Source: Aliiglaciecola sp. M165
GTDB taxonomy: Bacteria; Pseudomonadota; Gammaproteobacteria; Enterobacterales; Alteromonadaceae
Direction of reading: 5' to 3'
Assembly (NCBI RefSeq): GCF_007197995.1
Contig: NZ_VKKH01000001.1
Coordinates: 186,001 to 250,000, forward strand
Length of the DNA: 64,000 nucleotides
The position numbers were made by a program, and so were the translations under genes. Shown here in pieces: positions 40,251 through 56,324 of this stretch. Below the pieces are notes generated by a model that was not told the origin of the DNA, ran no database searches, and was given only the letters and a program-made list of their open reading frames with translations. Within the stretch, counting starts at the first letter, position 1, and every line of letters starts with the position of its first letter.

Positions 40251-41330
40251 CTACTTCTCCTGAGGCATTTGTTTAATGTAGAGGTCGTGTTTGGAATAAG
40301 GAATTTCGATATTGTTTTCTCTGAATTTTTTAAGTATTTCACAATTCAAAATATCAATAATACGGCCTTTTAGTTCTGGTTTATCAATCCAGACTAGCAA
40401 CTCAAAATCAAGAGCTGAACCACTAAATCTGCGGAAGCGAACTCTGGGTTCAGGTTCTGTACAAACTGATTCCTCACTTAATGCAATGGCCATTAATAGG
40501 TCGCGAACCAAGTCGATATCAGTTTCGTAGGATACGCCAATCGGGACACGGCACCGGGATTTTTCGTGTGGTCCCCCTGATTCATTAATAATTTTAGAGT
40601 TTCCCATAACGGAGTTTGGGATGGTAATTTCCACATCGTCCCTTGTTAGCATACGAGTACTACGGATCCCTATGTGGGTAATTTCTCCGCGTTCACCGGA
40701 ATCTAAAACCACATAATCCCCCACTTTGTAGGGCGCGTCAGCAATAATAAATACACCAGAGAATAGATTGGCCAAAGTATCTTTTGCGGCAAACCCCACT
40801 GCGATACCAATGATTCCCGCCGAGGCAAGCCAGGCCGTCATATCGACTTTCCAAATCGAAAAAATTAAATAGACAGCAAGGACTATAATGACAATGTTGA
40901 TAACATTCTGAAATAGCGGCAAGGTTTTGTGATTGATGCTTTTGAATCTGGTGGGGTGAAGCATGAGACTTCTAAGTAACTGCCTGTTTCCCCTCAACAA
41001 AAAGGATGTCCAGATCAACATACCAACTGACAAAAGTATCGATGTTCCAATAAAGAGGTACAGCGTGTCTGTGGTTAATACAAATAACGCACTTGTTAAA
41101 CCTATGAGAAGAACGCTGTAATAAATGGGACCGTGTAGTAAATCCAAAAAACCATTGGCCACGCTGATTCTAGAACGAGAAATTAACCATCTTAACCCCG
41201 CAATGAAGATGTATTTAAAGATAGAGGCAACGACGAAAGAAATCATAATGACCAGTGCAGCTTGCATCATTAAACTGTCGCCAAATGTTTTCAAGAACGA
41301 TGTTATGGATATCTGAAATTGCTCTATCAT
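40251..41330 (-). CDS. MscS-family mechanosensitive channel
   Basis: A 359-aa protein with four to five N-terminal membrane helices and the MscS pore and beta domain (WLASAGIIGIAVGFAAKDTLANLFSGVFIIADAPYKVGDYV; then GEITHIGIRSTRML). It should release solutes on osmotic downshock. The frame stays open 17 codons further (TTG at 41381), but the ATG at 41330 fits the family better. Convergent with proC, with no terminator seen in the 35-base gap. Confidence 0.9.
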   Translation of the reverse strand: MIEQFQISITSFLKTFGDSLMMQAALVIMISFVVASIFKYIFIAGLRWLISRSRISVANGFLDLLHGPIYYSVLLIGLTSALFVLTTDTLYLFIGTSILLSVGMLIWTSFLLRGNRQLLRSLMLHPTRFKSINHKTLPLFQNVINIVIIVLAVYLIFSIWKVDMTAWLASAGIIGIAVGFAAKDTLANLFSGVFIIADAPYKVGDYVVLDSGERGEITHIGIRSTRMLTRDDVEITIPNSVMGNSKIINESGGPHEKSRCRVPIGVSYETDIDLVRDLLMAIALSEESVCTEPEPRVRFRRFSGSALDFELLVWIDKPELKGRIIDILNCEILKKFRENNIEIPYSKHDLYIKQMPQEK

Positions 41331-41607
41331 TTTCGTTTCTGCACTTATTAATGTTTTTATAAGAAAGATTCTAAGGATCAACCTGTAGTCAATTCTTTTG
41401 ATTGCTGTTGATTTTGAGGAACCTTAATCAATTATATGCGCTTGTTTAGCAAAGTAATCAAATTCTGTTTCAACATTCATTCAACCTTTTAGAGCTTGTC
41501 GAGCTATTAGCGTGAAATGTTTAGTATCTAAACTATCTGAAGACTTCTTGCTTCACTTCAAAACGTGATGTTTTATTAGTTTTGGTTGTGGCGAGAACTA
41601 ATCGACG

Positions 41608-42348
41608 TCATGTATTTAGCATCGAAAATGCTTCAAGTTTTTCAAAGGCAGGTTTACCGATGAAGTAGCCTTGAAATAACTCAATACCTAAGCTCTTTAA
41701 TGTTTCAAGTTCCTCGCGTGTTTCTACGCCTTCAACGATGACTTTAGAACCAAGTTTTTGGAAAGTTGTCACTATCCCCGAAACAATGATTTGCTTCTTT
41801 TTCAACTTGTCGATATCGCGAATAAGCTCCATATCGATTTTAATGATATCTACCTCTACATCTGCGATCAGATTTAAACCAGAGTACCCTGCACCAAAAT
41901 CATCAATAGCAGTTAAAAAACCTCTGAGCTTGTAATGATTAACTATATTCTGCAGGTGCGTCGTGCTTTTTACTCTTTCAGTTTCAGTAAATTCAAAGAC
42001 TAATTTGTCAAGCGGAAAACAGAATTGACGCGCTGCTTTAAGGGTTGTCCTAATGCAGGATTCAGGATCGTATATCGCGTTAGGCATGAAGTTAATACTG
42101 AGCTGAGTATCTATTCCCAACTGACTCGCTAGCTCAATCGCCTTAACACGGCAAGCCTGGTCAAACGCATATCTATTGTGTTCGTTAACTTTTTGAAAAA
42201 CCTGCGCAGCACCTCCTCCATCAGGTGTTCGAACAAGTGCTTCATATGCAAAAATCTGCTTACGTTTAATATCTACGATAGGCTGAAACGCCATCGAAAT
42301 ATCAAAATTCAAAGCATCACCGTTTTTGCATTTTTTACATTTACTCAT
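41608..42348 (-). CDS. EAL-domain cyclic-di-GMP phosphodiesterase
   Basis: A 246-aa stand-alone EAL domain that would hydrolyse c-di-GMP. Visible motifs are FAYEALVR (EAL), LSINFMPNAI, FEFTE, DDFGAGYSGL, and KIDMELIRDI, then KVIVEGVET. A CKKC pair at the N-terminus is common in small EAL proteins of this type. The catalytic Glu, Asn and Asp residues appear intact. It stands alone. Confidence 0.9.
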   Translation of the reverse strand: MSKCKKCKNGDALNFDISMAFQPIVDIKRKQIFAYEALVRTPDGGGAAQVFQKVNEHNRYAFDQACRVKAIELASQLGIDTQLSINFMPNAIYDPESCIRTTLKAARQFCFPLDKLVFEFTETERVKSTTHLQNIVNHYKLRGFLTAIDDFGAGYSGLNLIADVEVDIIKIDMELIRDIDKLKKKQIIVSGIVTTFQKLGSKVIVEGVETREELETLKSLGIELFQGYFIGKPAFEKLEAFSMLNT

Positions 42349-42689
42349 TAGAAAACCTTCCTTTGTTTCAGATAGATTTGACCAGATTAATTACACTATT
42401 AATTTGTAACTTGCTCGGCAAAAGTTTTGCATATAAAAGTTATCAACATACAAAAGAAATGCCTCTATTCATAGCATAAATGTTTGAGGCTGAAATGCTC
42501 TGTACTGACCAAAACATCGAAGATTAACAAATTGAACTTACCAAGTTGGCCCTAGTTGAGGCAGTTTAAAGGTACTTTTACTTATTAAGAGAGGTTTAAA
42601 ATAGCGCACACCAAAAGCACTAAACATTTCTGTTCGGGCTCAAAGGATAATGAGCCTCGACCCGAGTTCGCTGTGCGCAAAAGCGTGCC

Positions 42690-43015
42690 AAAGTGAAGAG
42701 TGCAGAAATCCGTAAAGACCAATAGCAGTTTTCTGCTTCAGTCATGTGCCGTGTATTAAAGACAAATTTAAGTGAACTTTACGCTTAGCTAATACAACCA
42801 CTGAGTAATATAGCTTTCGGAGACAGTCGTTGTTGGAGACGCTCAAAGAGTCATTTCTTGCCATCAGTGGAATGTTCGGTAGCCCATAGATACGTCGTGA
42901 GGTTGACGAATCTTGCGACGTCCATCATGAAGTAAATACTGTTCGTAAGAACAACCTTGGAAAGCAGATTGTAGACAAGCGGAAATATATAAAAGCTGAT
43001 AAGCCATTATGAAGT
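42690..43015 (+). pseudogene. Remnant of an IS3-family transposase OrfB
   Basis: Translating in two frames gives IS3 OrfB pieces. First MCRVLKTNLSELYA (from 42744) followed by a stop and QPLSN; then, after a frameshift, LETLKESFLAISGMFGSP, a stop, IRREVDESCDV and finally VRKNNLGKQIVDKRKYIKADKP. This is the order of the IS150/IS2-type OrfB N-terminal third (MCRVL..SGYYAW; YGSPRI; KRKY). Two stops and at least one frameshift are present, and the catalytic DDE part is missing. Confidence 0.75.
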
Positions 43016-43243
43016 GAGGATAACGTCTTAGAAACGTAATTTCGCACCTAACGCATCAAATATTGAATGGGTTTGCAACATAGCAATCTAACATACTTAA
43101 GAGCGCTTTTCGTACTTCGCAACCGTAATCTACGTGTTTCTCGACGGGTGCTCTGTTGGTCGATGCACAAAAAAATTCCAGGAATTCTCTCAATTACAAA
43201 ACTAGATTGGCATTCAATAAACGCTGTGAATCCATTCATTATG

Positions 43244-43270
43244 AAAAAAGCCCGCTCATAGGAGAGCGGG
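43244..43270 (-). terminator. rho-independent terminator, minus strand
   Basis: On the minus strand CCCGCTC (43270-43264) pairs with GAGCGGG (43257-43251) and is followed by C and six T (43249-43244). A T-run also lies before it. It is ~290 bases beyond the stop of the SARP-like gene and ~55 bases beyond the predicted box A start. Confidence 0.8.
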
Positions 43271-43302
43271 AAAAAACGCAAAACAACATCACTTACTTAG
43301 TC
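43244..43302 (-). ncRNA. possible ~60-nt RNA from box A promoter to terminator
   Basis: Box A (43324-43341) is followed on the minus strand by a -10-like TAGTCT (43314-43309), which predicts a start near 43302. The terminator ends at 43244. The implied transcript is about 60 nt: a single-stranded, U-rich 5' part and a terminator stem. It could instead be a leftover promoter whose gene was lost. No homologue recognised. Confidence 0.3.
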
Positions 43303-43323
43303 GGAGGTAGACTACTGGCTAGG

Positions 43324-43341
43324 TGTCACAATTTCGTCACA
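43324..43341 (-). promoter_or_regulatory. SARP-type direct repeat, box A
   Basis: Minus strand: TGTGACG-AAAT-TGTGACA, two heptamers with an 11-bp period. A -10-like TAGTCT starts nine bases after it (43314-43309). It faces the terminator at 43244. Confidence 0.6.
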
Positions 43342-43557
43342 GATGATTTGTATTTTGGTCATGACATAATGGTATATGCTGAATTACTTGAAGGCGGAAT
43401 CTATTTAATCGTTGCTGACTAACCCGATACAATGTAGTTAAGCCAGAAACATTTTGACTAGCGCAACCTTTCCAACTTTAGACTAATGTAATAGTAACAA
43501 ACTAGTGTGTAACCGTTGATGCAATACCTCTTAATATGTAGGAAATTGGTTTGTTCG

Positions 43558-45150
43558 TTACCCCAGCTGCCGAGTGAACTTTCTTAGTTCTAGAAAGAAT
43601 GTTTCTGTGTCCTCAAGCCAAAGCCAATGACAATTTCCTTCTAGACCCACAAACCTTGCATTGGGTATTGACCGGGCTAAGTATTTACCATTCTCAACAC
43701 GAACGACTTTATCGCCTTCCTTATGGACAACAAGGGTTTTTATTGCAACTTGCTCTAAATCGTCGCGCAAATCGATATGCTTCGCAGCCAATAAAAGACG
43801 TTTGACCATTTCTGGCCCAGAGGCAGAACGGACCATTTTTGCCCACCAATTGATAAGAGGAAGGTCTTTCTCAAAAGTGGGAGCAAAGTTAGCGACACTT
43901 ATCGGCTTACCCCAGTTAAGCCTTATTTTTTCGATCCATTTGTCAAAGACAACATCTGGTACAGAATACGGATAATCTAAATCGGAGGTCCATTTAGCGG
44001 ATGTTCCGTATAAAACTAAACTATCAACGACACCACTATTGTTTTGCGCAGCAAACCTAATGGCAGGAAGACCTCCAATTGATGTACCTACCAATGTGAC
44101 TGGACCAAGAGAGTAGAAATGAATAATTTCGCGGATCGCTTCAGCTGTCTCTTGCATTGTTGGAGGCTGTCCTGTTCTTTCGGACAACCCAGACTCTCGT
44201 CGGTCAAAAATAACAACATTGTACTCTTCGGCGAAATCCATTAAGAAATGGCTTAGTCGAGGTTCTTCAATTGCTATTTCAATGTGCGAAACAAAACCTA
44301 ATAAAAAAACTAATGTTCGTCTTTTTTTATTATCAAAGTGCATCGCCGCTATAGATGAATTCCCACAAGCTATATAGTCGACTTTTGAGCTTAAATGCGC
44401 CTTTTTATTAGAAATCAAACTTGTATTGTAAGTTGATTCATTAAGAATCGTGGATCTCAAATTTTTGATAGCGATCGTCACACTCGAATCGTTGTTAGCC
44501 AAATTCGCAGATTCATATTGGTCCAATGCAAGCTCTGCCTTTTCTTTCATACCCTTTTCTATAAATTTCGAAACTACGGCCTCTACTGCAACGTCGCTTT
44601 CGGGGTCTGACAATATTGACATATTTAAATATTCTAAAAGTGTTTCAGGTGGAATTTTGTCTTCATTAACTGCAGTCAAAATAATTTTGGAAAATGTATC
44701 TTTGAAAAAAGCTTTATCAATCGTTGCCCATTGGGAAAGCTCGTCAGAAAAGTCGAAGTTTACACCTTCCAAGTGCTCCTTATTTAGAAGCGAGAAAAGA
44801 TGATTGAGTGTTTTCTTGCTGGCGTCACGAAGACAGTGTTTTGCTAACGATAAGTCATCAACCACTGTTAGTTGCTTAGATAATCTTATACTATCATTCG
44901 AGTATTCGAAAATGTCACATCTGAACGCTTTATTTATATCCGATAGAACTGTACGCAAAGCCCCCTTTGCTTTGGAAAAGTCTGAATCTGGCCAGAACAA
45001 AGATGACAATTTGTTTCTGTCATTCCACCCCTTGTTTGCGTGGAGGTACACAAGAAGAATTTTAGATTTTTTTCTTGAGAGCCGTATATTTTGACCACGA
45101 AACACAAATTCGAGCCTTCCGATAGTTTTAATCTGCAATTTGGTGGTCAT
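43558..45150 (-). CDS. SARP/BTAD-like winged-helix regulator fused to an alpha/beta hydrolase
   Basis: A 530-aa fusion. Residues ~5-95 are an OmpR/SARP-type winged helix (IKTIGRLEFVFRGQNIRLSR; LLVYLHANKG; LFWPDSDFSKAKGALRTVL), and ~97-235 are helical like a BTAD. Residues ~258-528 are an alpha/beta hydrolase: FDRRESGLSER, nucleophile Ser357 in GTSIGG, Asp480 in HKEGDKVV and His508 in GNCHWLW form a plausible triad. Such hydrolase domains in regulators may bind or cleave a signal. No membrane helix. It probably controls the box genes at 43.3-52.8 kb (inference). The usual SARP C-terminus is replaced. Confidence 0.82.
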   Translation of the reverse strand: MTTKLQIKTIGRLEFVFRGQNIRLSRKKSKILLVYLHANKGWNDRNKLSSLFWPDSDFSKAKGALRTVLSDINKAFRCDIFEYSNDSIRLSKQLTVVDDLSLAKHCLRDASKKTLNHLFSLLNKEHLEGVNFDFSDELSQWATIDKAFFKDTFSKIILTAVNEDKIPPETLLEYLNMSILSDPESDVAVEAVVSKFIEKGMKEKAELALDQYESANLANNDSSVTIAIKNLRSTILNESTYNTSLISNKKAHLSSKVDYIACGNSSIAAMHFDNKKRRTLVFLLGFVSHIEIAIEEPRLSHFLMDFAEEYNVVIFDRRESGLSERTGQPPTMQETAEAIREIIHFYSLGPVTLVGTSIGGLPAIRFAAQNNSGVVDSLVLYGTSAKWTSDLDYPYSVPDVVFDKWIEKIRLNWGKPISVANFAPTFEKDLPLINWWAKMVRSASGPEMVKRLLLAAKHIDLRDDLEQVAIKTLVVHKEGDKVVRVENGKYLARSIPNARFVGLEGNCHWLWLEDTETFFLELRKFTRQLG

Positions 45151-45306
45151 AGCGATACGGTCGTTTAATGCTGATGACTGAGTTTACTAAATTTGAAAAC
45201 AAAAAAATATCTGATTAGCCACCCTTTAAACGCTTTCTGACCGTCTATATTTCCTTCCGAAAAAACCACATTTATTGTACGATTACACTTCTTTTTCGGG
45301 GGTATT

Positions 45307-46371
45307 ATGGCGACAAATCAAAACCGCAGTCTTGAAAAATTTTATTTTGTCCGAAATACAAAGCTAGCTGTTTTTGTTCACCCGTTACTATTCCCTATTT
45401 TATACTTTTCCACTGACGAAACCTTATTTGATTTTAACGTTTTCATTCAAATAGAAATTGCCTTTCTTTGTATTGGATTGACACGTTATTTTTGTGCTAA
45501 AAAGTTCCTAGATGGATCAAGCTCAAGCGCTGTTGGTATGGTTGCAATATACGGTTTTGTTCTCGCTGGCCTCTTATGGGGGACAATAGGCGTACTTATT
45601 TCTGAAGCAAACATGCATTTATCATTCTTATTGTTTGCATCAACGAGCGTGGCGTTAGCCGCACATGGGAGCATTTCGTTTGCCCCGATTAGGCACGGTG
45701 CAATCCTCAATATATTAATTTTAATGAGCCCAATACTTTTTCACGTTTATGCACAAGGCAACTTTGCCGCTGTGACATACATAGTCGTTATCTCAGGAAT
45801 GGCAGTAGCCTTTGTGTTTATCTCGAAAAGAAACTTTAGAGGAGATAAAAGGCATCTGTTAAGTATTGAAGAAAAAACTACTGTCGATCAAATGACGGGG
45901 TTACTAAATAAGACAATTGGAGTACAGAAGGCAGAGGCTTATTTAGAGAGTGGTTTTCCCCCCGGCGGGATTGCTATATCGATTCTCGACATTGACCACT
46001 TCAAAGCTATCAATGACACTCATGGCCACAGCGTAGGAGATAAATGCATATTGGAAATGGCCAATCTGATAAAGATAAATGTGCGATCTCACGCAGATCT
46101 TTCTATACGATATGGTGGCGAAGAGTTTGTGCTTGTGCTCACTTCAATAAAGCGCAATGAGTTAAAGGATGTGTTGGAACGAATAAGGGTTGCAACAGAG
46201 AGACTCGTTGTTAAAGAGGGTTCTTGTGAAGTGAAATTTACAGTTTCTGCTGGCGCAGCTTGGACATACAATGATGGAGATTCTTGTACGTTTAAGGAAC
46301 TTTTTGAGATAGCTGATAAAAATCTTTACGCCGTAAAAAACGAGGGAAGAAACGGCGTATTACTTAGCTAA
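45307..46371 (+). CDS. Membrane diguanylate cyclase (GGDEF)
   Basis: A 354-aa protein with about six membrane helices in residues ~20-175 and a GGDEF domain (~190-352): DQMTGLLNK, ILDIDHFKAINDTHGHSVGD and the active-site loop RYGGEEF. It would make c-di-GMP from GTP. Five residues before the active site the inhibitory-site RxxD reads SHAD, so product inhibition is probably lost. It is convergent with the PhnD-like gene; the IS481-type element sits immediately after its stop. No box of the SARP type lies in front of it. Confidence 0.92.
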   Translation: MATNQNRSLEKFYFVRNTKLAVFVHPLLFPILYFSTDETLFDFNVFIQIEIAFLCIGLTRYFCAKKFLDGSSSSAVGMVAIYGFVLAGLLWGTIGVLISEANMHLSFLLFASTSVALAAHGSISFAPIRHGAILNILILMSPILFHVYAQGNFAAVTYIVVISGMAVAFVFISKRNFRGDKRHLLSIEEKTTVDQMTGLLNKTIGVQKAEAYLESGFPPGGIAISILDIDHFKAINDTHGHSVGDKCILEMANLIKINVRSHADLSIRYGGEEFVLVLTSIKRNELKDVLERIRVATERLVVKEGSCEVKFTVSAGAAWTYNDGDSCTFKELFEIADKNLYAVKNEGRNGVLLS

Positions 46372-46373
46372 AT
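46367..46373. repeat. target-site duplication, left copy
   Basis: GCTAAAT just before the left terminal repeat, repeated at 47394-47400. It includes the TAA stop of the GGDEF gene. Confidence 0.75.
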
Positions 46374-47393
46374 TGTGTGATTCATAGACATCCTTTCATT
46401 ATAATTGGATGTTATGAATGATGAAATTCAACAGAGATTGGTCTGGATAAAATTACTTGAATCATCAGGTGATGCAGGTTTAGTTTGTCGTAAATGTGGC
46501 ATCACCAGACCAACTCTCCGTAAATGGTGGAGGCGCTATCAAGAGTTAGGCAAAGTTGGTCTGATTAGCCAAAGTAAGCGTCCTCATTTGTCACCAAATC
46601 TTAAAACCACAGACAAAGTTGAGAAGCTAATTTTGGAATTACGCTCAGCAAGAAATCTCGGAGCTAGGAGGCTTCAAAGCGAGTTATTTAGACTTCACAA
46701 CATATCATTAGGTCTGGCGACAATTCACAAAGTTTTCAAAAAGCATCAAGTTAAACCTCTTCAAAAATTCAGGCGAAAGGTTGATTACATTCGATATGAA
46801 CGACCATTGCCTGGCGATAGAGTACAAATGGACACTTGCAAAATAGCTCCTGGGCTTTATCAATATACTTCGATCGACGACTGCACTAGATATAGGGTTT
46901 TGAGGCTCTACAAGCGTCGTACGGCAGCCAATACATTAGACTTTATTGACGCTGTTGTTGAAGAAATGCCTTTTCCTATTCAGCGATTTCAAACTGATCG
47001 TGGCAGAGAATTTTTTGCTGAAAAGGTTCAGAAAAAAATGATGTCTCTGGGTATCAAGTTTCGTCCTAATAAACCAGCTTCACCACATCTTAATGGAAAA
47101 GTTGAGCGATCTCAGAAAACCGATAAAGCCGAGTTTTATGCAACTGTAGATATCGAATCTGATGACTTGGACAGTCAACTTTCTGAATGGCAGCACTACT
47201 ATAATTGGAATCGTCCACATAGTGCTCACAAAGGCAAAACACCAATGGAAAAGTATTTCATTCTCTCTGAAGAAACTCCGTTCTCAGATGCTGTTATTGA
47301 AAGCTATAAACTCAAAAGTGAAAGGGTTCAGGATGCAAATTACAGACGAGATTTAGAGATCGCCAGATTGAAACGATCTCTATGAATCACACA
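46374..47393 (+). mobile_element. IS481-type insertion sequence
   Basis: A 1020-bp element bounded by perfect 15-bp inverted repeats (TGTGTGATTCATAGA at 46374-46388 and its complement at 47379-47393) and flanked by a 7-bp GCTAAAT duplication. It carries one intact transposase gene. Perfect ends and intact target duplication suggest a recent insertion. Confidence 0.9.
46414..47385 (+). CDS. IS481-family transposase
   Basis: A 323-aa DDE transposase: N-terminal helix-turn-helix (DAGLVCRKCGITRPTLRKWWRRYQ), then an rve-type catalytic core with Asp in VQMDTCKI, Asp in FQTDRGREF and Glu in NGKVERSQKTDKAEF, and the C-terminal YNWNRPHSAHKGKTP. Length is normal and no stops interrupt it. A TTG three codons upstream (46405) is an alternative start. 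Confidence 0.9.
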   Translation: MNDEIQQRLVWIKLLESSGDAGLVCRKCGITRPTLRKWWRRYQELGKVGLISQSKRPHLSPNLKTTDKVEKLILELRSARNLGARRLQSELFRLHNISLGLATIHKVFKKHQVKPLQKFRRKVDYIRYERPLPGDRVQMDTCKIAPGLYQYTSIDDCTRYRVLRLYKRRTAANTLDFIDAVVEEMPFPIQRFQTDRGREFFAEKVQKKMMSLGIKFRPNKPASPHLNGKVERSQKTDKAEFYATVDIESDDLDSQLSEWQHYYNWNRPHSAHKGKTPMEKYFILSEETPFSDAVIESYKLKSERVQDANYRRDLEIARLKRSL

Positions 47394-47400
47394 GCTAAAT
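47394..47400. repeat. target-site duplication, right copy
   Basis: GCTAAAT just after the right terminal repeat, identical to 46367-46373. Its last base is part of the stop codon of the PhnD-like gene. Confidence 0.75.
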
Positions 47401-48260
47401 TAAAGCTGTTTTAAGATCCTTACTAGTGGTTCGAGATCGCTTTTTTCCACTCTAACAAACGTTGTCGAATTTCCGAATTCTGGCCAACCTTTTTTTAGCC
47501 CTTCCAATATCTTTTCGCTCTCTTTAGCGTTTTTTATTAAAATATGTTGAAGCCGAAGACAAGAACTCAATGGTTCAATTGCACACACCAGAGGCCCAAA
47601 AGGAATAATCGATGACCGCCAAACTTCTGATACTTTTCCTGGATTTTTTTTACTTTCCTCTAAAAACACTTTGGTGGCAAGAATCCCGAATTCAAAGCTT
47701 AATTCCGCTACCCCTTTGAACACATTTACATGACTACCGACATATGCCGTTTCATAACTCAAGCCTTTGTTATTTAGTCTTGTATTGACATATGCTAATC
47801 CAACTAACCCACCGGATATAGAATCAGACCAGACGGTTGCAATAGGCTTGTTGGAAAGCGCACGTAAATCTGTCAACGTTGTTTGTCCTCTGAAACTTGT
47901 CACAATACTACTGGTATAACTTGACCCTAATGTGTCTGGGCTAGCAAGCAAAACGAAGTCAATTGTAGGGCTGAATGCGATCTGCAGATAGCCAGCAAGA
48001 TTGGGAACTGCTATTTGAATTTGACCTTGCTTGAACGCATCTGCTAGCTCAGAAGGAGAGTCAAATAAAACTACCACAGCGGGGGCATTTAAATTGGCTA
48101 CTACTGACTCTAATAGTGGCTTGATCGAAGCCGCCCTGTCTATTCCTGGGTATTTATACGTTCCTATCAATATAGGCGACTGACTACCATCTGCCTGAGC
48201 GAGACAAGACACGGCAAGCATTAATGCAAACACCATATATTTAACCAAAGTACATTTCAT
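47400..48260 (-). CDS. Periplasmic PhnD-like substrate-binding protein
   Basis: A 286-aa protein with a signal peptide (MKCTLVKYMVFALMLAVS, cleavage after AQA) and a PhnD/phosphonate-type binding fold (ILIGTYKYPGIDRAASIKPL; LADAFKQGQIQIAVPNLAGYL; LRALSNKPIATVWSDSISGGLVG). No permease or ATPase genes are nearby, so it may serve as a sensor or an orphan binding protein. It has a Cys pair near the C-terminus (CAIEPLSSC). No clear SARP-type box upstream. Confidence 0.75.
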   Translation of the reverse strand: MKCTLVKYMVFALMLAVSCLAQADGSQSPILIGTYKYPGIDRAASIKPLLESVVANLNAPAVVVLFDSPSELADAFKQGQIQIAVPNLAGYLQIAFSPTIDFVLLASPDTLGSSYTSSIVTSFRGQTTLTDLRALSNKPIATVWSDSISGGLVGLAYVNTRLNNKGLSYETAYVGSHVNVFKGVAELSFEFGILATKVFLEESKKNPGKVSEVWRSSIIPFGPLVCAIEPLSSCLRLQHILIKNAKESEKILEGLKKGWPEFGNSTTFVRVEKSDLEPLVRILKQL

Positions 48261-48386
48261 CCAAAACTCTAAAGCTGAAGGGGGCAGATTTGGCTACATA
48301 AACTGAAAGTTATGAGACAAAACGATTACTATCATCTAGTCAACAAGCATCTATTAGTATTTTCACATAGTTGAGCGAATGCCTAG

Positions 48387-48947
48387 TCACGAGCTACAGG
48401 CTTGTTCTAACGCTTTTGAAGCATACATCGCTCGGCGATTTACCAGCGGACTTTCTAAATTCCGCAGTAAAATGGAAGTTCGCTCAAAGCCGGCAAAGTC
48501 ATTTATTTTATGGTCCTCGCATATCGCTCGATGGGTAGGGATAATTATTGATATAGGGCACGCAGCGAGAGCTCTTTTTATTTTTTCTTTGGAATCAAAA
48601 ACATTTAAGCGTCGAGATATTTTGGAGTACGTCGAGCGTTGTCCAAAAGGGATTCTTCGAACTTGATGCCAAACTTCGGATTGGAAGTAAGTTCCATCAA
48701 GGGTGAAAGGAACAGTGAACGCCGTACGACATCCCGAGAAATACTCTTCAATTTGGTAAATCGCTTCTTCCAATAGAGGGGACTTACCTTTTCTAAAAGA
48801 TGCCGAATATTTTCTGCAAAGTCGATTGTAAATAAGGATTCGATTGGATCTGCAGGACCAATCACACATAACGAGCCTTCCCTGAAAATCGCCTAAAACT
48901 AGTTCGCCAAGAGGAGACAGAAAAGTTTCACATACGATTGAAGCCAT
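48387..48947 (-). CDS. Alkyltransferase-like protein (O6-alkylguanine family, active Cys replaced by Thr)
   Basis: A 186-aa protein from the ATG at 48947 (AGGTG upstream; an in-frame GTG at 48956 is possible). An N-terminal AGT-like half (SPLGELVLGDFQGRLVMCDW) is followed by the DNA-binding half (FQSEVWHQVRRIPFGQRSTYSKISRRLNV). The signature PCHR is PTHR here: Thr138 (codon ACC at 48534-48536). Without the acceptor Cys it cannot transfer alkyl groups; ATL proteins with Trp at that position bind lesions and recruit excision repair. Thr is not the usual ATL residue. A SARP-type box lies 57 bases upstream. Confidence 0.8.
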   Translation of the reverse strand: MASIVCETFLSPLGELVLGDFQGRLVMCDWSCRSNRILIYNRLCRKYSASFRKGKSPLLEEAIYQIEEYFSGCRTAFTVPFTLDGTYFQSEVWHQVRRIPFGQRSTYSKISRRLNVFDSKEKIKRALAACPISIIIPTHRAICEDHKINDFAGFERTSILLRNLESPLVNRRAMYASKALEQACSS

Positions 48948-49003
48948 TTTGTACACCTAAACATCCACTTTATTACCAGAACGATACGATAATCCTTTAA
49001 ATG

Positions 49004-49021
49004 CGTGACAAAACCGTCACA
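49004..49021 (-). promoter_or_regulatory. SARP-type direct repeat, box B
   Basis: Minus strand: TGTGACG-GTTT-TGTCACG, 11-bp period. A -10-like GATTAT (48994-48989) starts nine bases later, predicting a ~35-nt leader before the alkyltransferase-like gene at 48947. Confidence 0.6.
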
Positions 49022-49144
49022 AATATTCTGGGTGAATGAGAAACTGTGCTCTTAAATTAAAAGGACTTTGTGCTTTAAAGAAAAGTACCATTGGAAAATA
49101 CTGCTAGACGGGAACGAGATCACAATGCAATTTGTTAGGCTTTT

Positions 49145-49618
49145 CTACAAATCAGCAGAGCAACTTTCATTAGCATTAAGAATTTCTAATTCTAATAAAC
49201 TTTTTTCCATATGAATTTTTGGTTCTTTGAGATCAGTGAAACCAAATTTAGAATATAATCCCTGAGCATCCAATGTAGATAACATGAACCTTCTTAGCCC
49301 TTGTAAATCCTTATGCCTGAAAATATTCATAAGTAACAACTTCGATAAACCAAATCCACGATATTCCTGCAATATATAAACATCAGATAGATAGGCAAAG
49401 GTTGATTTGTCAGATATGACTCTGGCGAATCCTACTTGCCTGCCCTGTGGAGAAATCACTCCAAAACAAAGTGAGTTTTCAACGGCTTTTGAAAGCCTTT
49501 CAAGTGTGATTCCCTTTGCCCAGTATGAAGACTCGAGGAACGAGAGCACAGAATACAAGTCAAATTCATCCTGATTGGTAGTAATACGAAAACCAGGAGT
49601 TAAATTATTGCTTACCAT
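49145..49618 (-). CDS. GNAT-family acetyltransferase
   Basis: A 157-aa GNAT protein: a Trp-rich N-terminal region (SSYWAKGITLERL), the central sheet VGFARVISDKSTFAYLSDVYIL and the acetyl-CoA loop EYRGFGLSKLLL, with a C-terminal YSKFGFTDL. It would acetylate an amine; the substrate is unknown. It has its own 226-base upstream gap without a recognised box. No neighbour explains its role. Confidence 0.88.
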   Translation of the reverse strand: MVSNNLTPGFRITTNQDEFDLYSVLSFLESSYWAKGITLERLSKAVENSLCFGVISPQGRQVGFARVISDKSTFAYLSDVYILQEYRGFGLSKLLLMNIFRHKDLQGLRRFMLSTLDAQGLYSKFGFTDLKEPKIHMEKSLLELEILNANESCSADL

Positions 49619-49844
49619 AGAGCCTATTCCCTATTTTTTATATACGTTTCAAAACAGCGATTAATAGATTGCTATTAAGAGTTTTGGTCCATAGTGTATG
49701 CATTTACCAAATAATACTTTTTATAAGCAACCTCGCATAGAAAGACGTGCATCTGCGTAAGTAATATTCCAACCTTCGCTCTTCATTGATATGTATGAAG
49801 TGACCGCTTGAGCTGCCAATATTAATTAGTGTGAAGACAAACTG

Positions 49845-50942
49845 TTAGTTAACAAAATCTTTAGGAATTTGGACCTGAAAAACGCCACCTTTGTAGAGCC
49901 CCAAATAAACAATAAAAAATTCTTCAGATTCTTTGAAAGTGAGGCTCCAAACGCCGCCAAAAAGATCATTATCGTCTAACGTATATTTATGCCAACTGCC
50001 TCCGCCATCACTGCTGACTTCTAGAATGAGAGGTTGCGACGAATCGAAATTTTTAGCCCAAGAGGAAGTCACCAATAAATTGCTTGTGCCTAACTCCACT
50101 AGGTCAAAGTAAAACCTTGAATTTTCATCTTCAATTAAAGCGGCCCAACTTTCACCTGAGTCATCTGAAAACACAATACCTCCCTCACCTGATACTACGA
50201 CCCGCTCCTTGTTCGACCCTACAAGATTTATACTCTTCACTGAACTAGGCGACTCTAAGACATCAACTACACTAGTATAATTAATCGTTTCAAGAGTATT
50301 TTCGTCGAAGCTCCGAAGCAAGGCCCCCTCTATTGCGTTTTGACCTCCAAACCAAATTTCACTGCTTGCAGGCATTTTTAATAGAGTAAAAAGCCCTGTA
50401 GCAAAAGTCTGCCATTCGCCTGAAAGCTCTTGCCATGTAATACCGAAGTCGTCTGACTTTGCAAGAACGCCATAACCTACTGCGTAGAGCACGCCAAGTG
50501 TATCGTCGAACATAAGTCTATTCGCGGGTTCATATAGCTCGGAAGTTGGCTGAGGATTTGGTCCGCCAAAATTAGTTGAGATGATCTCCCAGGAAGCACC
50601 ATTATTCCTTGTTTCATAGAGGAATTCGTTTTCATTGACAGACACACTGGCTATAAGGTGTTCTGGGTATAAAGACACAACATCACGGACATACCAATCG
50701 TCATTGCTGATTAACTGCCAATCGCTGCTATTGTTCAATATGAAAACGCCCGCACTTGTAGCAGCCGTTATGCTGTCATCAAAAACTGACTTTTCAAATT
50801 GGTTAATAATTAAACCTTCTAAACCCATACTTTGGAATTCAATTTTGGAAGGCGGGTCCAATGGTTCAGTAGATGCGTCTTCTTCAATATCACAGCCGAA
50901 AAGAATTAAACAAAAAATGAGGAGGAAAAAATAACGAAACAT
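49845..50942 (-). CDS. BNR/YCF48-like beta-propeller lipoprotein
   Basis: A 365-aa protein with a lipobox (FFLLIFCLILFGC, Cys near 16) and a run of BNR/sialidase-type beta-propeller blades with Asp-box-like units (FSDDSGESWAAL; KSDDFGITWQEL; VSSDGGGSWHKY). It is probably a surface- or periplasm-facing recognition propeller rather than an enzyme, as no catalytic Arg/Tyr set is visible. The ATG follows GGAAGC. A SARP-type box lies ~47 bases upstream. Confidence 0.8.
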   Translation of the reverse strand: MFRYFFLLIFCLILFGCDIEEDASTEPLDPPSKIEFQSMGLEGLIINQFEKSVFDDSITAATSAGVFILNNSSDWQLISNDDWYVRDVVSLYPEHLIASVSVNENEFLYETRNNGASWEIISTNFGGPNPQPTSELYEPANRLMFDDTLGVLYAVGYGVLAKSDDFGITWQELSGEWQTFATGLFTLLKMPASSEIWFGGQNAIEGALLRSFDENTLETINYTSVVDVLESPSSVKSINLVGSNKERVVVSGEGGIVFSDDSGESWAALIEDENSRFYFDLVELGTSNLLVTSSWAKNFDSSQPLILEVSSDGGGSWHKYTLDDNDLFGGVWSLTFKESEEFFIVYLGLYKGGVFQVQIPKDFVN

Positions 50943-50988
50943 TGATTTGCTTCCATAAATTAAGAATTCAGTAAGAATAAGGAGTGGA

Positions 50989-51006
50989 CGTCACAGAAAC
51001 GTGACA
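50989..51006 (-). promoter_or_regulatory. SARP-type direct repeat, box C
   Basis: Minus strand: TGTCACG-TTTC-TGTGACG, 11-bp period. A -10-like TATTCT (50979-50974) starts nine bases later; predicted start near 50967, about 25 bases before the lipoprotein ATG at 50942. Confidence 0.65.
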
Positions 51007-51217
51007 AAAAAATAATACGGATATTGAAGCTACTAGTATTGCCAAAACATTTCTCGCTAGTTGGCATTTTTTATAAAGCGATCGTAAAAAAGGAAAGTAA
51101 AGCGTCCAGAAAATTGTTTGATGTGTTCTACAAATGAAAGCTAAGCCGAACTTAAGTATTAGAAACCGTGATTCACCTATTTAACTTGGATAAAATTTCA
51201 ACTGTTACTCGGGAAGT

Positions 51218-51754
51218 CTAAGCAAGTTTTTTTGCGAGAACGCTGTATATATGCCAATTGTTGTTATCACATTCAGTGGAGGAACCCGAGCAGCGAATTT
51301 CATCAAAAGAAATGATTTCTAGATTTTTAAAGTACTCCCTGATTTCCTGTTCATGAATTGCTTCGGAATAGAACCAACTATGTACGTGTGGATAATTTTC
51401 AAGCATTGAGTCGTGCTCGCCTAAAAACGTAGCGAAAAAACGCGTCCTGGTCTCAGTGCAGGTAACATTCTAGATATTGAAAGTGCGAGTTGATCTAACG
51501 GCAAAAAATAAACTCGCATCTGCAGCAATGAACAAAGCATCTGGGTAGTCGAAATCCAAAAATACTAACTTTTTTACTTGAACAAACGAATTGTCTTTGA
51601 ATCTACCTGATAGCATTTCTAGTGCTCTATCTTCATTGTCATAGCCAAATACTTCGTATCCTGTTGAAAGTAAAAACTCAATGTCACTTCCTGCACCACA
51701 ATCACAATCACAATCACAATCAACGGCTATTGTGCGAAACTTATATGCGCACAA
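51218..51754 (-). pseudogene. Disrupted SAM-dependent methyltransferase
   Basis: A class I methyltransferase broken in the middle. The first part has motif I as VDCDCDCDCGAGSD and continues GYEVFGYDNEDRALEML and DYPDALFIAADASLFF. A stop at 51467-51469 interrupts that frame; a neighbouring frame there reads LDQLALSISRMLPALRPG, and the original frame resumes with FFATFLGEHDSMLENYPHV and IHEQEIREYFKNLEII. Two compensating frameshifts therefore explain the break. Motif I is also lengthened by a tandem 6-bp repeat. Product almost surely inactive. Confidence 0.8.
51698..51721. repeat. (ACAATC)x4 hexanucleotide repeat
   Basis: Four perfect tandem ACAATC units (GATTGT on the coding strand) within motif I of the methyltransferase pseudogene. 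Each unit encodes Asp-Cys. The normal motif would contain one or two copies. Confidence 0.85.
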
Positions 51755-51801
51755 CGCCGCTTTTAAACGCTCTCACACGGTTTTTGAGGTAATATATTTG
51801 G

Positions 51802-52599
51802 CTAGTGTGTGTTTTCATGTGAGTTTATTACGTTAATTGTTTCATTAATCAACTGCGCCGATTCTCGTGGCATTTCGAGTGGAAACATATGTCCCCCTTG
51901 GACCATTTGGACTGAACTTTCGAACATGCTATTCCTACACCAGCTCACATCCCAAGAAGAAATCATATTGCTTTTAGATCCAAAAATTATTGTGCTTTTT
52001 ACATGTTTCAGTTGCCTTGGTATGTTGACAAGAATCGTGCGGAAAAGCTGGGCTTCAATCTCCGTTGAAAAAGACAAATGGATAGTTCCATCCTTTAAGT
52101 AAAAGCCGCTTTCCATAAAATCTTCAAAACATGCATTATCAAAATTTGAAAATAGGTTCTTTCGGGAGAAATGTATACGCGCATCATTGATTGTGGCAAA
52201 TCGATTTTTTCGTTTCTTTGCTGCGCCGGAAGGGCCAAAGTAGTCAATTAGGCCCAATGTCTTTAAAAACCCAATAATCAGACGCTTTGATGTTGAAAGA
52301 AATATCGGTTCTAACATAATAACCCCTTTGAACAAATAGGGATATCGCGAAGCTGCCAAGCCTACCACACAAGCTCCTGTGCTATGCCCCATGGCGATGA
52401 CTGGGGCTTCGAAGCCGGCCATAACAGAGTCAACAAACTCTTCAACCAGCGCATCCAAATTTTTGGGTAATACTGTGCTTTTGTGGGAAATTTTTTCAAT
52501 TGCTTTGACTTCAACATTTTTTAGCATACCTAAAAAGCTAGAGTAGCAACCGGCTGGGAAGCCGTTTGCGTGAACGAAATGCAATTGTGTCGAACTCAT
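51802..52599 (-). CDS. Alpha/beta hydrolase
   Basis: A 265-aa alpha/beta hydrolase (from the ATG at 52599, with GAGGTGG upstream; an in-frame GTG lies four codons earlier). It begins LHFVHANGFPAG, has the nucleophile elbow GHSTGA and a final His in QGGHMFPLEMP. These fit small serine hydrolases that act on esters or lipids. It starts in four-base overlap with a small frame upstream and lies ~190 bases downstream of a SARP-type box. Substrate unknown. Confidence 0.85.
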   Translation of the reverse strand: MSSTQLHFVHANGFPAGCYSSFLGMLKNVEVKAIEKISHKSTVLPKNLDALVEEFVDSVMAGFEAPVIAMGHSTGACVVGLAASRYPYLFKGVIMLEPIFLSTSKRLIIGFLKTLGLIDYFGPSGAAKKRKNRFATINDARIHFSRKNLFSNFDNACFEDFMESGFYLKDGTIHLSFSTEIEAQLFRTILVNIPRQLKHVKSTIIFGSKSNMISSWDVSWCRNSMFESSVQMVQGGHMFPLEMPRESAQLINETINVINSHENTH

Positions 52600-52748
52600 A
52601 TTTGAACCCACCTCAATGTTTTACATTTAATAGTATTTCTTAAGCGCTGCCTGTGAGGGCCATATTTACTAAACGATTCTGAATTCATACCCGACTGATA
52701 ACGGGCCCATAGAGCGTATCGGTAACCAAATATTTGATAGATCTGCAA
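52596..52748 (-). CDS. Possible small protein coupled to the alpha/beta hydrolase
   Basis: A ~50-aa frame (TTG at 52748, with GAAGGG upstream) ending in an ATGA overlap with the hydrolase start. It is rich in Tyr/Arg (IFGYRYALWARYQSG; KYGPHRQRLRN). Box D predicts a transcript starting near 52765, just ahead. No homologue recognised. It may be a real small protein or just a coupling leader. Confidence 0.35.
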   Translation of the reverse strand: MQIYQIFGYRYALWARYQSGMNSESFSKYGPHRQRLRNTIKCKTLRWVQI

Positions 52749-52785
52749 TAGATGTGTCGCCCTTCGGTAGATGATTACCACACAC

Positions 52786-52803
52786 CGTCACAAATACGTC
52801 ACA
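52786..52803 (-). promoter_or_regulatory. SARP-type direct repeat, box D
   Basis: Minus strand: TGTGACG-TATT-TGTGACG, the best copy, 11-bp period. A -10-like TAATCA (52777-52772) starts eight bases later and faces the small frame and alpha/beta hydrolase. A TATAAA at 52824-52829 could serve the plus-strand homocysteine methyltransferase gene. Confidence 0.65.
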
Positions 52804-52994
52804 ATTTGAAATTCGTAACCCTGTATAAAATAAAACAAATATTAGATTTCACTTCCAAATAGTCGCCGCCAAAAAACTAGATATTGAATAGTCCAATATT
52901 GCTGATGATAATTATTGAAGCATTTTTGATTACTTTTTAGCTCACATAACGCCATCTGGCGTGATGTGATAACAAATAAAATACGGAGTCTAAT

Positions 52995-53948
52995 TTGACG
53001 AATATCAATTTTCCCGAAAGCCGTCCCAATACAATTTTTCTTACAGAAGGCGGGATTGAAACTGAAATAATGTACAAATGGGGATTTGACTTACCTCATT
53101 TTGCTATGTTCCCTTTATTAGAAAACCCTGAAGCCTCAGAAACTATTAAGAATATGTATCGCAGATATCTTGACGTCGTTGCTAAATATGGCCATAACGC
53201 GCTCATTGGCGGTTTCGACTACAGGGCGAGCCCAGATTATGGCAAAGCCTTGGGGTATTCAGAAGACGGTCTTCGAGAGGCTAACATGAGATCAATCCAA
53301 TTCTTACGAGATGTCGCAGCCGAATATAACGGGCAAATAGATCAGTGTTTATTTACCGGGTACGTAGGGCCTAGAGGAGACGCATACTTCGGTGCAAACA
53401 ATATGTCGATAGAAGAATCAGAGCAATACCATAGTGTGCAAATTGAGACGCTAAAAGCGGCAGGTGTTGATCTGGTCTGGGCAGTTACGTTTTCACATGT
53501 GCAAGAAGCAATAGGTGTCGTGAGAGCTGCAAAAAAAATAGGATTGCCTATCGCGATTTCTTTCACGTTAACGAGTGAGCACAAGTTATCGAGTGGTTTG
53601 TCATTTTCGTCCGCTATTAAAATTGTTGATGCTCAAACTGCCGGATACCCTTCTTTTTTCAGTATCAACTGCTCACACCCGGATGAATTCGGGCCAGCAC
53701 TTAGTGACGGAGAATGGATGCACAGAGTCAGATCGCTGAGGCCAAACGCTGCAAAGATGGACAAAATTTCATTGTGTAAGCTTGGTCACCTAGAAGAAGG
53801 GAATCCCGTCGAGCTAGGTATACAAATCGGAGAATTAAAAAAGCGGTACGAACATATGGATATTTGGGGTGGATGTTGCGGTACATGTGAGACTCATCTA
53901 GAGGAAATGGCCAAAAACCTCCCTTCAGGGCTTTATAAGTCTCCTTGA
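52995..53948 (+). CDS. Homocysteine S-methyltransferase family enzyme
   Basis: A 317-aa protein with the homocysteine-methyltransferase barrel. N-terminal LTEGGIETEIMYKWGFDLPHFA, zinc-binding Cys in INCSHP and the CC pair in WGGCCGTC (Cys294/295). It would move a methyl group from a donor such as S-methylmethionine to homocysteine. The start is TTG, supported by ACGGAG six bases before it. It stands alone on the plus strand with no amino-acid permease beside it. Confidence 0.9.
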   Translation: MTNINFPESRPNTIFLTEGGIETEIMYKWGFDLPHFAMFPLLENPEASETIKNMYRRYLDVVAKYGHNALIGGFDYRASPDYGKALGYSEDGLREANMRSIQFLRDVAAEYNGQIDQCLFTGYVGPRGDAYFGANNMSIEESEQYHSVQIETLKAAGVDLVWAVTFSHVQEAIGVVRAAKKIGLPIAISFTLTSEHKLSSGLSFSSAIKIVDAQTAGYPSFFSINCSHPDEFGPALSDGEWMHRVRSLRPNAAKMDKISLCKLGHLEEGNPVELGIQIGELKKRYEHMDIWGGCCGTCETHLEEMAKNLPSGLYKSP

Positions 53949-54052
53949 TTTATCTACTAATAGTATTTACGCAACAAATGGCACTATGAGATACATTTTA
54001 GGGCACATATAGGTCTAATCTCGACTTTCCTTGGTTCGTTCAATCATTGGAA

Positions 54053-54086
54053 CGAAAAAGCCCCGAAAATTTCAGCGCAGGGCTTA
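54053..54086 (-). terminator. minus-strand terminator
   Basis: On the minus strand AAGCCC (54085-54080) pairs with GGGCTT (54063-54058) and is followed by TTTTT. The flanks closely match the terminator of tRNA-Phe at 56623-56651. Confidence 0.65.
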
Positions 54087-54093
54087 GAAATAA

Positions 54094-54117
54094 TGGTGTT
54101 CGAGGCGGGATTCTCCT
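54094..54117 (-). other. tRNA 3'-end-like fragment
   Basis: Minus strand GAATCCCGCCTCGAACACCA is placed relative to the terminator as the T-arm, acceptor and CCA of tRNA-Phe are at 56661. Upstream sequence does not fold as a tRNA. It is probably a decayed tRNA end or an attachment-site scar. Confidence 0.4.
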
Positions 54118-54533
54118 GAGGTTTGCAAACTCGTTGAGCCAGAATACCTGCGAACTTCATCGTCATCATGGGAAAGCCAGATGGTCCAAATAAGAACACT
54201 CATTATTCGACATGTTTTGCGCGTTATTACAAAGTGCTCTCAAATAAATGCACAAACATCTGCATATAGTTGGTATTGGACATTGATTAAGCGTTATAGT
54301 GAGACAGCACTGCTCAAATATTAACCGATTTTAAAGCGAGAAACGACCTGTTTGAGAACTCATTGCTCTCTTTGTAAGGGTAAATCATAAATTGGTCAAC
54401 ATAACGATACTAGGTCACAAGTTGTCTCAACTGTTATTCATTGCATTCCGACTAAGCGAGAAAGTTACAAATTTTAATAGGTTGACGCAGCGCTACGCGG
54501 AAGTTATTTCATACACCAAAGGGATAAACACTT

Positions 54534-56324
54534 ATGCGGATATTAAATTTTAACGGTGGTGTTTTCTCCCATCGACTTTTTTCAAAAACGTTCCTCACAA
54601 TCGCCTCACTGATTTTATTATTTGGCTGTGGGGATAATATTGATAGCAAAAACGCTGATACCGGTGCAGAAACGAAAACAGATTTGGAGCTTGCACAAAG
54701 CAATTGGCGGCAACCCTTATTTAGTGGTTTGGGCGAAGTGAACTTTCCCATCACTACCCAATCTGCTGTCGCGCAACAGTACTTTAACCAAGGACTTGCC
54801 TTATCCTATGCGTTTAACCATGCAGCCGCGGATTTCGCGTTTAACGAAGCAACCATTTATGACCCAGATTGTGCCATGTGTTATTGGGGCAGCGCGCTAG
54901 TTTTGGGGCCAAATGTGAATGCCGATATGGCAGCTGGAAATGCCCCCCGCGCTTTTGGTTTAGCTAAAATGGCGAAAGAACTAAGCGAAAACGTCAGTGC
55001 CAAGGAAAAAGCGCTCATCAATGCACTGCAAAATAGGTATTTAGAGACTGAGCCTGCGGATAGAACCTCGCTAAACGAAGCATACGCAGAGGGTATGCGC
55101 GCAGTAATGAAAGCCTACCCGAAAGACGCCCATATTACTGCATTAGCGGCCGAATCAATGATGGACGTTCACCCATGGGATTTTTGGGATGCAAAAGGTG
55201 TTACACGACCTTGGACCAAAGAAATAACAGATACCATTGAAACCGCTTTAGCGCTCGATAAAAAACACATTGGCGCAATTCACTTATATATTCATGCAGT
55301 AGAGCAATCTACAAACCCAGAGCGTGCAGAACCCTATGCAGATACGCTGGCGGAACTTGCCCCTGCGGCCGGGCATTTGGTTCATATGCCTGCGCATATT
55401 TATATGAGAGTGGGGCGTTACTATGATGCAACCCTGAATAACATGTTAGCGACTGCCGCAGATAATGAGTTTGTTCAAAGCTGTCGGTCAAATAGTCCAA
55501 TCTATCTCGCTGGATACATCCCACACAATTGGCATTTTGGCTGGGTGACGGCAGCCATTAGTGGTTGGAAAAGTAAAGCCTACGAACTCGCTGAAGGGAC
55601 TGCCGCGGCACTAACAGAAGAGCTACTTCGAGCACCAGGCATGGCCGTGGCACAACATTTTTATTCGCAGCCACTCTACGCAAAAGTCAGGTTTGCTGAT
55701 TGGCAGGGGATCCTCGACACACCTGAACCAGCAGAGGATCTGCTGTACGCACGTGGAATTTGGCACTATGCCCGGGGGCAAGCGTTTGTTGGGCTTAATG
55801 ACCCAACAAACGCCGAGTTAGAACTCACAAAATTAGCCGAAATTCGGAACATGCCAGAGACCGAATCTCTTCGTTTTTTTAATCGCGAGGGGGCACCAAT
55901 TCTTTTGAAGATTGCTGAGACAGTGTTAACGGGCTCGATTGCAGAATATGCTGGAGATCTGCAAACAGCAATATCCACATTTAAGACAGCTGTAGTATTG
56001 GAAGATTCGTTGCCGTACTCAGAACCACCAGAATGGTTCTTTCCTGTAAGACATGCGCTAGGTGCCGCACAACTAGCAGCAGGTGAATTTGCAGCAGCAG
56101 AAGCGACCTATCAACGAGACCTTGAGATTATGGTCGAAAATGGCTGGGCGCTCCGCGGACTTGCCGAAGCCTTAATCTTACAAGGCAAAACTGAAGAAGC
56201 AAAGAATGTGGAGAGTAGATTTGAGGCCGCATGGAAGCACGCCGATATTACTATCAACGGATCAGTAATTTCTACAGATGAAACAATGCTCAGCGCTTCT
56301 ACTAGAACACAAGGACCAGGTTAA
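54534..56324 (+). CDS. TPR-repeat lipoprotein
   Basis: A 596-aa protein with a lipobox near residue 34 (ASLILLFGC) and TPR-like helical repeats over most of its length. Early repeats run YFNQGLALSYAFNHAAADFAFNEA and CAMCYWGSALV; the C-terminal repeats include RHALGAAQLAAGEFAAAEATYQRDL and LAEALILQGKTEEA. Such proteins organise envelope complexes. CAMC could bind a metal or haem-like group but only one such pair is seen. It lies just beyond the accessory region. Confidence 0.85.
   Translation: MRILNFNGGVFSHRLFSKTFLTIASLILLFGCGDNIDSKNADTGAETKTDLELAQSNWRQPLFSGLGEVNFPITTQSAVAQQYFNQGLALSYAFNHAAADFAFNEATIYDPDCAMCYWGSALVLGPNVNADMAAGNAPRAFGLAKMAKELSENVSAKEKALINALQNRYLETEPADRTSLNEAYAEGMRAVMKAYPKDAHITALAAESMMDVHPWDFWDAKGVTRPWTKEITDTIETALALDKKHIGAIHLYIHAVEQSTNPERAEPYADTLAELAPAAGHLVHMPAHIYMRVGRYYDATLNNMLATAADNEFVQSCRSNSPIYLAGYIPHNWHFGWVTAAISGWKSKAYELAEGTAAALTEELLRAPGMAVAQHFYSQPLYAKVRFADWQGILDTPEPAEDLLYARGIWHYARGQAFVGLNDPTNAELELTKLAEIRNMPETESLRFFNREGAPILLKIAETVLTGSIAEYAGDLQTAISTFKTAVVLEDSLPYSEPPEWFFPVRHALGAAQLAAGEFAAAEATYQRDLEIMVENGWALRGLAEALILQGKTEEAKNVESRFEAAWKHADITINGSVISTDETMLSASTRTQGPG

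Follow-up and report, generated by a model that had tools for sequence, protein, structure and literature searches.

Regulators of the SARP type are described as found mainly in actinomycetes (PMC10936776). Actinobacterial SARPs such as AfsR, DnrI, ActII-ORF4 and PimR carry a winged helix followed by a BTAD domain, and their sites are 7-bp direct repeats with an 11-bp period, the 3' copy lying 8 bp from the −10 element and overlapping the −35 region (PMC10936776; PMC10972967; PMC3367932). Here we report that a 64,000-nucleotide stretch of Aliiglaciecola sp. M165 (contig NZ_VKKH01000001.1, positions 186,001 to 250,000; hereafter the window) holds four sites of this format, S1 to S4, within 9.5 kb beside the gene for a predicted SARP-type regulator with an alpha/beta hydrolase as its putative effector domain (Table 1). 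Very probably this regulator is an activator that drives the four local promoters at S1-S4. Within one family, the predicted regulator is accompanied by this combination of repeat and spacing in two neighbourhoods that are otherwise unrelated, the window being one of them, and the same holds at ten loci in six other genera, which supports the SARP interpretation put forward in the initial annotation of this DNA.

The locus differs from the actinobacterial systems in its host, in a C-terminal alpha/beta hydrolase domain where those proteins have NOD/TPR or LAL regions, in a spacing between repeat and −10 that is mostly 9 nt, in the heptamer TGTSACG and in targets that form no evident antibiotic cluster. 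A literature search, for which subscription papers were mostly beyond reach, returned no paper on a SARP-hydrolase in Pseudomonadota, which is weak evidence of novelty.

The four sites had been read as TGTGACG-N4-TGTGACG, and a pattern search recovered every one of them where it had been placed, all on the minus strand, with the 11-bp period and with 1, 1, 1 and 0 mismatches for S1 to S4, respectively. With up to two mismatches allowed the window has four matches against 0.19 expected, and at least four were reached in 0 of 100 shuffles; with up to three there are six against 3.4 expected, a number that 13 of 100 shuffles reach. Chance is excluded as the source of the four-site cluster in 9.5 kb. 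As a caveat, GTSAC is its own reverse complement, and the reading as direct and not inverted repeats depends on the flanking T (8/8 heptamers) and G (7/8). The sites have in common only the 18-bp format and the −10; their spacers and flanks differ.

A −10-like hexamer had been placed 8-9 bases downstream of each site. All four in fact begin at exactly 9 nt past the second heptamer, the fourth, given earlier as TAATCA, being the same stretch as AATCAT with a start one base earlier. The pattern NANNNT at this distance is thus present at 4/4 window sites, compared with 1/14 of the other matches in the same genome (at most two mismatches) and 1/28 of the matches in relatives; when 8 or 9 nt is accepted the control values are 1/14 and 3/28. 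None of the 20 sigma-70-like promoters predicted in 42300-53000 coincides with S1-S4, which fits promoters where an activator would make up for a missing −35 element. With respect to the published format, heptamer direct repeats with an 11-bp period are seen at 4/4 window sites and in the relatives described below, and the distance to the predicted −10, about 8 bp in SARPs, is 9 nt (4/4 window sites), 8 nt (2/2 sites in the relative G013) or 9 nt to a TA (10/10 other loci).

The site set is local. Within the 4.61-Mb genome there are five places with at most one mismatch, of which four are S1-S4, and one for the motif read backwards as a control; the fifth place lacks NANNNT at both 8 and 9 nt and falls within 119 codons free of stops. 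At up to two mismatches the genome holds 18 matches against 30 for the control, so the enrichment expected of a genome-wide regulon was not found, and what stands is a set in which 4/5 close matches lie at the regulator. In 59 further genomes from the genus, family and order, 28 matches with at most one mismatch were counted, never more than two in one genome; the control gave 61, so the relatives show no enrichment of the motif, and 21 of the 28 fall inside stop-free stretches of at least 150 codons. The control reaches five matches in two of these genomes, and hence five sites per genome are unremarkable alone while four in 9.5 kb stand out. Given these counts and the clustering at the regulator, the motif is not scattered at random genome-wide, an outcome that would have spoken against the proposal. 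Genome contigs scanned with the regulator and with A3 as queries yielded no confirmed relative.

The initial annotation described the regulator as a SARP/BTAD-like winged-helix protein. That assignment draws on the homologs, the protein's own sequence falling short of the Pfam cut-offs for Trans_reg_C and BTAD, and an alpha/beta hydrolase domain has now been added (residues 278-516, Abhydrolase_1 E 3e-15). Five full-length homologs exceed the BTAD cut-off of 22.1, L020 with 36 bits and L152, L154, L155 and L150 with 52-60 bits; a BTAD domain after the winged helix would thus be present in the clade and, for the window protein, through alignment only. The L020 homolog also weakly matches the NCBIfam model AfsR (E 1.7e-5). 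An N-terminal profile of seven homologs matched 12 solved structures, among them designed TPR proteins (E 3e-10), a response regulator (E 0.008) and, as the sole SARP-type entry, EmbR (PDB 2fez, residues 8-88, E 0.009), a weak match to a protein that has an FHA domain where the window regulator has the hydrolase. For the hydrolase half, esterases are nearest (E down to 4e-27), and RsbQ and KAI2-type receptors (PDB 1wom, 9wgk, 8tmx, 5z7w and 5dnu) match at E 4e-12 to 4e-9, both among the best 60 of 183 matches. RsbQ/KAI2-type hydrolases sense small molecules with an intact triad; esterases match the window hydrolase better, and unlike these receptors it is fused to a predicted DNA-binding activator. 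Ser357, Asp480 and His508 are invariant in the aligned homologs (alignments A1 and A5), and we read them as a retained catalytic triad. HilA-type enteric regulators likewise have an OmpR-type winged helix and a TPR/BTAD-like region and act at a repeat-type box near −35, and they are not known to have a hydrolase domain; the literature search turned up no paper on this likeness.

A search of 395 genomes of the family, the own genome included, gave 12 with a match at E ≤1e-20. Besides the window's own, the sole close full-length homolog among these (35% identity) is in G013, a member of another genus. The regulator is the only protein common to the window's 40-56 kb and the 20 kb around the G013 gene, two further rows of the comparison being antisense frames of the regulator gene itself. 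About 90 bp upstream of the G013 regulator and facing a divergent gene is TGTCACG-CTTT-TGTCATG, followed after 8 nt by TACTAT, and 5.7 kb away TGTCACA-CTGT-TGTCACG is followed after 8 nt by GACAAT and leads into a gene for a 254-residue membrane protein and then a hydrolase gene. A scan of these 20 kb for any repeated heptamer, made without the motif, ranked the two pairs TGTCACG/TGTCATG and TGTCACA/TGTCACG first. TGTSACG-type matches number four in the whole G013 genome (control 1), and the two not named above fall within 395 and 717 codons free of stops. With the divergent targets of two of the loci described next, L152 and L156, the membrane protein downstream of the second site shares 38% identity, and with the second divergent gene of a third, L199, it shares 37%. 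This shared target links the TGTSACG group with the GGGGACG group, as does the regulator. Proteins of this type recur behind repeats across genera (L152, L156, L199); the G013 member (L122 15589-16353) has a weak similarity to isoprenylcysteine methyltransferases (E 0.002, below cut-off), and its substrate may hint at the signal.

The second comparison started from a homolog in Paraburkholderia caribensis, found in a plasmid search (28% identity), where a perfect intergenic GGGGACG-CTCA-GGGGACG is followed after 9 nt by TACCAT and points toward a divergent gene that reads as an FAD-monooxygenase. A phylum search (398 genomes) added five close homologs, L152-L156, from genomes listed under other classes, the L156 gene being truncated by a contig end; in 5/5 a repeat directed away from the gene precedes its matched start by 22-53 bp, with TA exactly 9 nt on. 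The prediction was then recorded before the families of G1351 and G1398 (161 and 149 genomes) were searched, and it held at 3/4 of the new loci under the strict rule (L199, L200 and L203) and at 4/4 under the loose one; L202 has AGGGACG/GGGGACT, with two differences between the copies, in the same place and TAGGGT at 9 nt. In all, (G/A)GGGACG-type repeats with TA at exactly 9 nt stand at ten loci from six genera, directed away from the regulator and 22-53 bp before its matched start. The strict motif rule is passed by 9/10 of them, at a chance of ≤0.0004 each by a control on shuffled upstream DNA, and the same 9/10 pass when the heptamer may be of any sequence so long as it is repeated and TA follows at 9 nt (≤0.0064 each). 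The failures of the strict test are L202, through its two differing bases, and G013, which is outside the ten and has its TA at 8 nt. PimR is similar to these loci in that its site also lies between divergent genes. In seven genomes GGGGACG-N4-GGGGACG with at most one mismatch occurs at 14 places against 22 for the control, i.e. without genome-wide excess; four are perfect, and three of these four are the divergent sites. A single operator, or a few, would thus seem to be the rule in the relatives. A second perfect repeat in G1398 (L187, G1398:C1:853707-853724) lies just past a gene end and points back into that gene, which reads as another methyltransferase-like membrane protein.

More distant SARP-hydrolase groups behave differently, 0/10 of their loci passing either rule. 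The Sinorhizobium terangae locus L195 has no site, and its N-terminal sequence, by reading and off the tree, places it with L157 in another group. One distant group (L120 8675-11184, L121 8656-11153 and L021 668-3069) lies beside ECF-sigma-like genes without a heptamer site. SARP-like N-terminal domains occur in 61/369 genomes of the window's class, many in frames of 1000-1300 codons, which is LAL-like in size. A tree of 15 rows separates the eight proteins with repeats from the rest by a branch with 100/100 support. Because of its length L157 is absent from this tree, though it was kept in the non-clade test; L199, L200, L202 and L203 came after the tree, and their grouping is based on matches to A6 at E ≤1e-225. 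Before counting we dropped L196 and L197 (which share their species, and the repeat, with L150), rows for the same loci, L198 (L153), L201 (L155), L204 (L156) and L144 (L141), and L172, the rest of a split gene. Matches of the phylum search to the hydrolase alone were not counted, although the repeat scan took in 13 of them. Both TGTSACG and repeated heptamers of any kind were looked for in L123 and L142-L147, with L145, L146 and L147 outside the upstream rule test.

Several points weigh against the SARP interpretation. Residues 1-250 of the regulator score 16.3 bits for Trans_reg_C, below the cut-off of 26.2, the protein has no reported Pfam BTAD match of its own, and the AlphaFold2 model of the single sequence is too poor for use (mean pLDDT, the predicted confidence per residue, of 38.9). 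The tree carries a long-branch warning for the window and G013 proteins. S1 faces no gene, and the regulator's own upstream region in the window has no repeat site, unlike in the relatives. The spacing is 9 nt where 8 is published, G013 alone excepted; the heptamer differs by group (TGTSACG vs GGGGACG); and the hexamers of the ten loci all begin with TA, yet have T at position 6 in 3/10 (L150, L155 and L202). The GGGGACG motif was derived from six of the loci, the first ones, which leaves the later four as its independent test, and since several of the ten share a genus they do not count as ten separate events. In the G013 locus 3/20 shuffles likewise gave two sites with a heptamer in common, and the weight of that scan therefore lies in the heptamer being that of the window. 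Lastly, TGTGACG-N4-TGTCACG is conserved between genes in two species of the same genus that lack the regulator (L040 1501-1518 and L041 1501-1518). The initial annotation would have counted such conservation against itself; it is confined to this one intergenic site, which has no NANNNT at 8-9 nt, also reads as inverted GTGAC-N6-GTCAC and may be bound by another regulator. It lies near bacterioferritin-like genes, by reading.

The alternative that survives best, and which we nevertheless hold to be rather improbable, is that the regulator acts as a constitutive or repressor-type SARP, or that the hydrolase domain is a structural remnant. The sequence would be compatible with either sign of regulation, and the hydrolase could be a scaffold. 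The invariant Ser, Asp and His speak against a remnant, and the position of the sites over −35, one turn from −10, is that of a SARP activator (PMC10936776), while the absence of coinciding promoters among the 20 predicted likewise fits activator dependence.

A small chance only is given to the sites belonging to another regulator, PhoB or CRP for example, that recognises tandem repeats or TGTGA half-sites. The idea draws on a shared format, the pho box consisting of 7-bp repeats at 11 bp and CRP half-sites beginning with TGTGA, on the phosphonate-binding-type protein encoded in the window and on the L040/L041 site described above. The usual pho box motif, CTGTCAT-N4-CTGTCAT, occurs with at most two mismatches at 24 places in the genome (control 15), none of them in the window, and the inverted TGTGA-N6-TCACA of CRP is found in 0/4 site sequences; both candidates were rejected. 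A global regulator would hardly be expected to place 4/5 sites in 9.5 kb, and repeats of this format are found with the regulator where the surrounding genes are unrelated. Least probable of all, and rejected, is that S1-S4 arose as copies of mobile or repetitive DNA, e.g. a cassette boundary, and are not operators, as the transposase gene between regulator and targets and the slightly lower G+C content of that region (0.38-0.41 vs 0.41-0.46 in the flanks) might suggest, since the four sites share nothing beyond the 18-bp format and the −10, and in other genera and classes this format precedes genes that are unrelated.

The genes that S1-S4 face agree with the earlier assignments: an alkyltransferase-like gene for S2, a lipoprotein gene for S3, an alpha/beta hydrolase gene for S4 and only a terminator for S1. 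In the S2 target the translation reads PTHR, with Thr where the methyl-accepting active-site Cys is expected; PCHR is the usual active-site motif of O6-alkylguanine-alkyltransferases, and because of this replacement the protein is probably not an active methyltransferase. The GNAT gene is possibly read from S3 by co-transcription. The S4 target starts about 175 nt downstream of its site, and the short methyltransferase-like frame is a possible second gene of this unit. A 6-bp tandem repeat (51697-51722, 4.3 perfect copies) inside that frame reads DCDCDCDC in its first motif and is possibly a length-variable tract. The S4 unit, an alpha/beta hydrolase gene followed by a methyltransferase-like frame, resembles the divergent targets elsewhere, which by reading are alpha/beta hydrolases (L154, L199 and L200), methyltransferases (L155 and L202) and an oxidoreductase (L203); the hydrolases are not close relatives of each other. 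At 43242-43323, S1 with its −10 and the hairpin would bound an RNA of about 60 nt, the fold of 43242-43302 having −16.2 kcal/mol and a z of −2.65, and a scan of 40000-56000 against Rfam gave no match at the gathering score. S1 is possibly the promoter of a small RNA or an orphan promoter.

Table 1 Positions of the predicted regulator, its candidate sites and the surrounding features in the window
Feature	Position	Strand	Basis or remark
Intrinsic-terminator-like hairpin after S1	43251..43270	minus	terminator prediction
−10-like TAGTCT	43309..43314	minus	exactly 9 nt after S1
S1 TGTGACG-AAAT-TGTGACA	43324..43341	minus	pattern search
Regulator: OmpR/SARP-type winged helix, BTAD-like TPR region, alpha/beta hydrolase	43558..45150	minus	domain searches
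Integrase-core transposase gene	46405-47385		domain match; between regulator and targets
Phosphonate-binding-type protein	47400-48260		domain match
O6-alkylguanine-alkyltransferase-like protein (S2 target)	48387..48956	minus	Pfam PF01035 E 1.6e-14, PF02870 E 2e-4
−10-like GATTAT	48989..48994	minus	exactly 9 nt after S2
S2 TGTGACG-GTTT-TGTCACG	49004..49021	minus	pattern search
GNAT acetyltransferase	49145..49618	minus	Pfam Acetyltransf_7 E 6e-10
BNR-repeat (propeller-like) lipoprotein (S3 target)	49845..50942	minus	Pfam BNR E 2e-6; lipoprotein by reading
−10-like TATTCT	50974..50979	minus	exactly 9 nt after S3
S3 TGTCACG-TTTC-TGTGACG	50989..51006	minus	pattern search
Short methyltransferase-like frame	51470..51754	minus	Methyltransf_25 E 0.005, below cut-off
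Alpha/beta hydrolase (S4 target)	51802..52611	minus	Abhydrolase_6 E 8e-7
−10-like AATCAT	52771..52776	minus	exactly 9 nt after S4
S4 TGTGACG-TATT-TGTGACG, perfect	52786..52803	minus	pattern search

For a SARP-type activator with a hydrolase domain we picture that two protomers would bind side by side on TGT(G/C)ACG heptamers one helical turn apart, and that the bound pair, just upstream of a −10 without a good −35, would recruit RNA polymerase at S1-S4 on the minus strand. In the relatives the same type of regulator would control the promoter from which the adjacent divergent gene is read. The hydrolase domain with its kept triad most likely senses a small molecule, which it may bind or hydrolyse. 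Four sites in the window, none of them at the regulator, vs one or few in the relatives suggest a regulon that has spread along one stretch of DNA.

The comparison supports placing this predicted activator, with its hydrolase domain, its host outside the actinobacteria and its operator conserved beside the gene, as a variant of the known SARP kind. More tentatively, and with considerable doubt, it might represent a one-component class of Pseudomonadota in which a SARP is joined to a KAI2/RsbQ-like hydrolase and ligand hydrolysis switches small regulons, the operator having multiplied in the window to four promoters, including one for a small RNA (S1). A hint at the chemistry of the signal comes from the nearby genes of hydrolase, methyltransferase and oxygenase type. 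With SARP-hydrolase and operator traced across several Pseudomonadota genera and the heptamer shifting from GGGGACG to TGTSACG, the system is suited to testing how SARP recognition changes, and whether alpha/beta hydrolases serve as intracellular signal receptors in bacteria.

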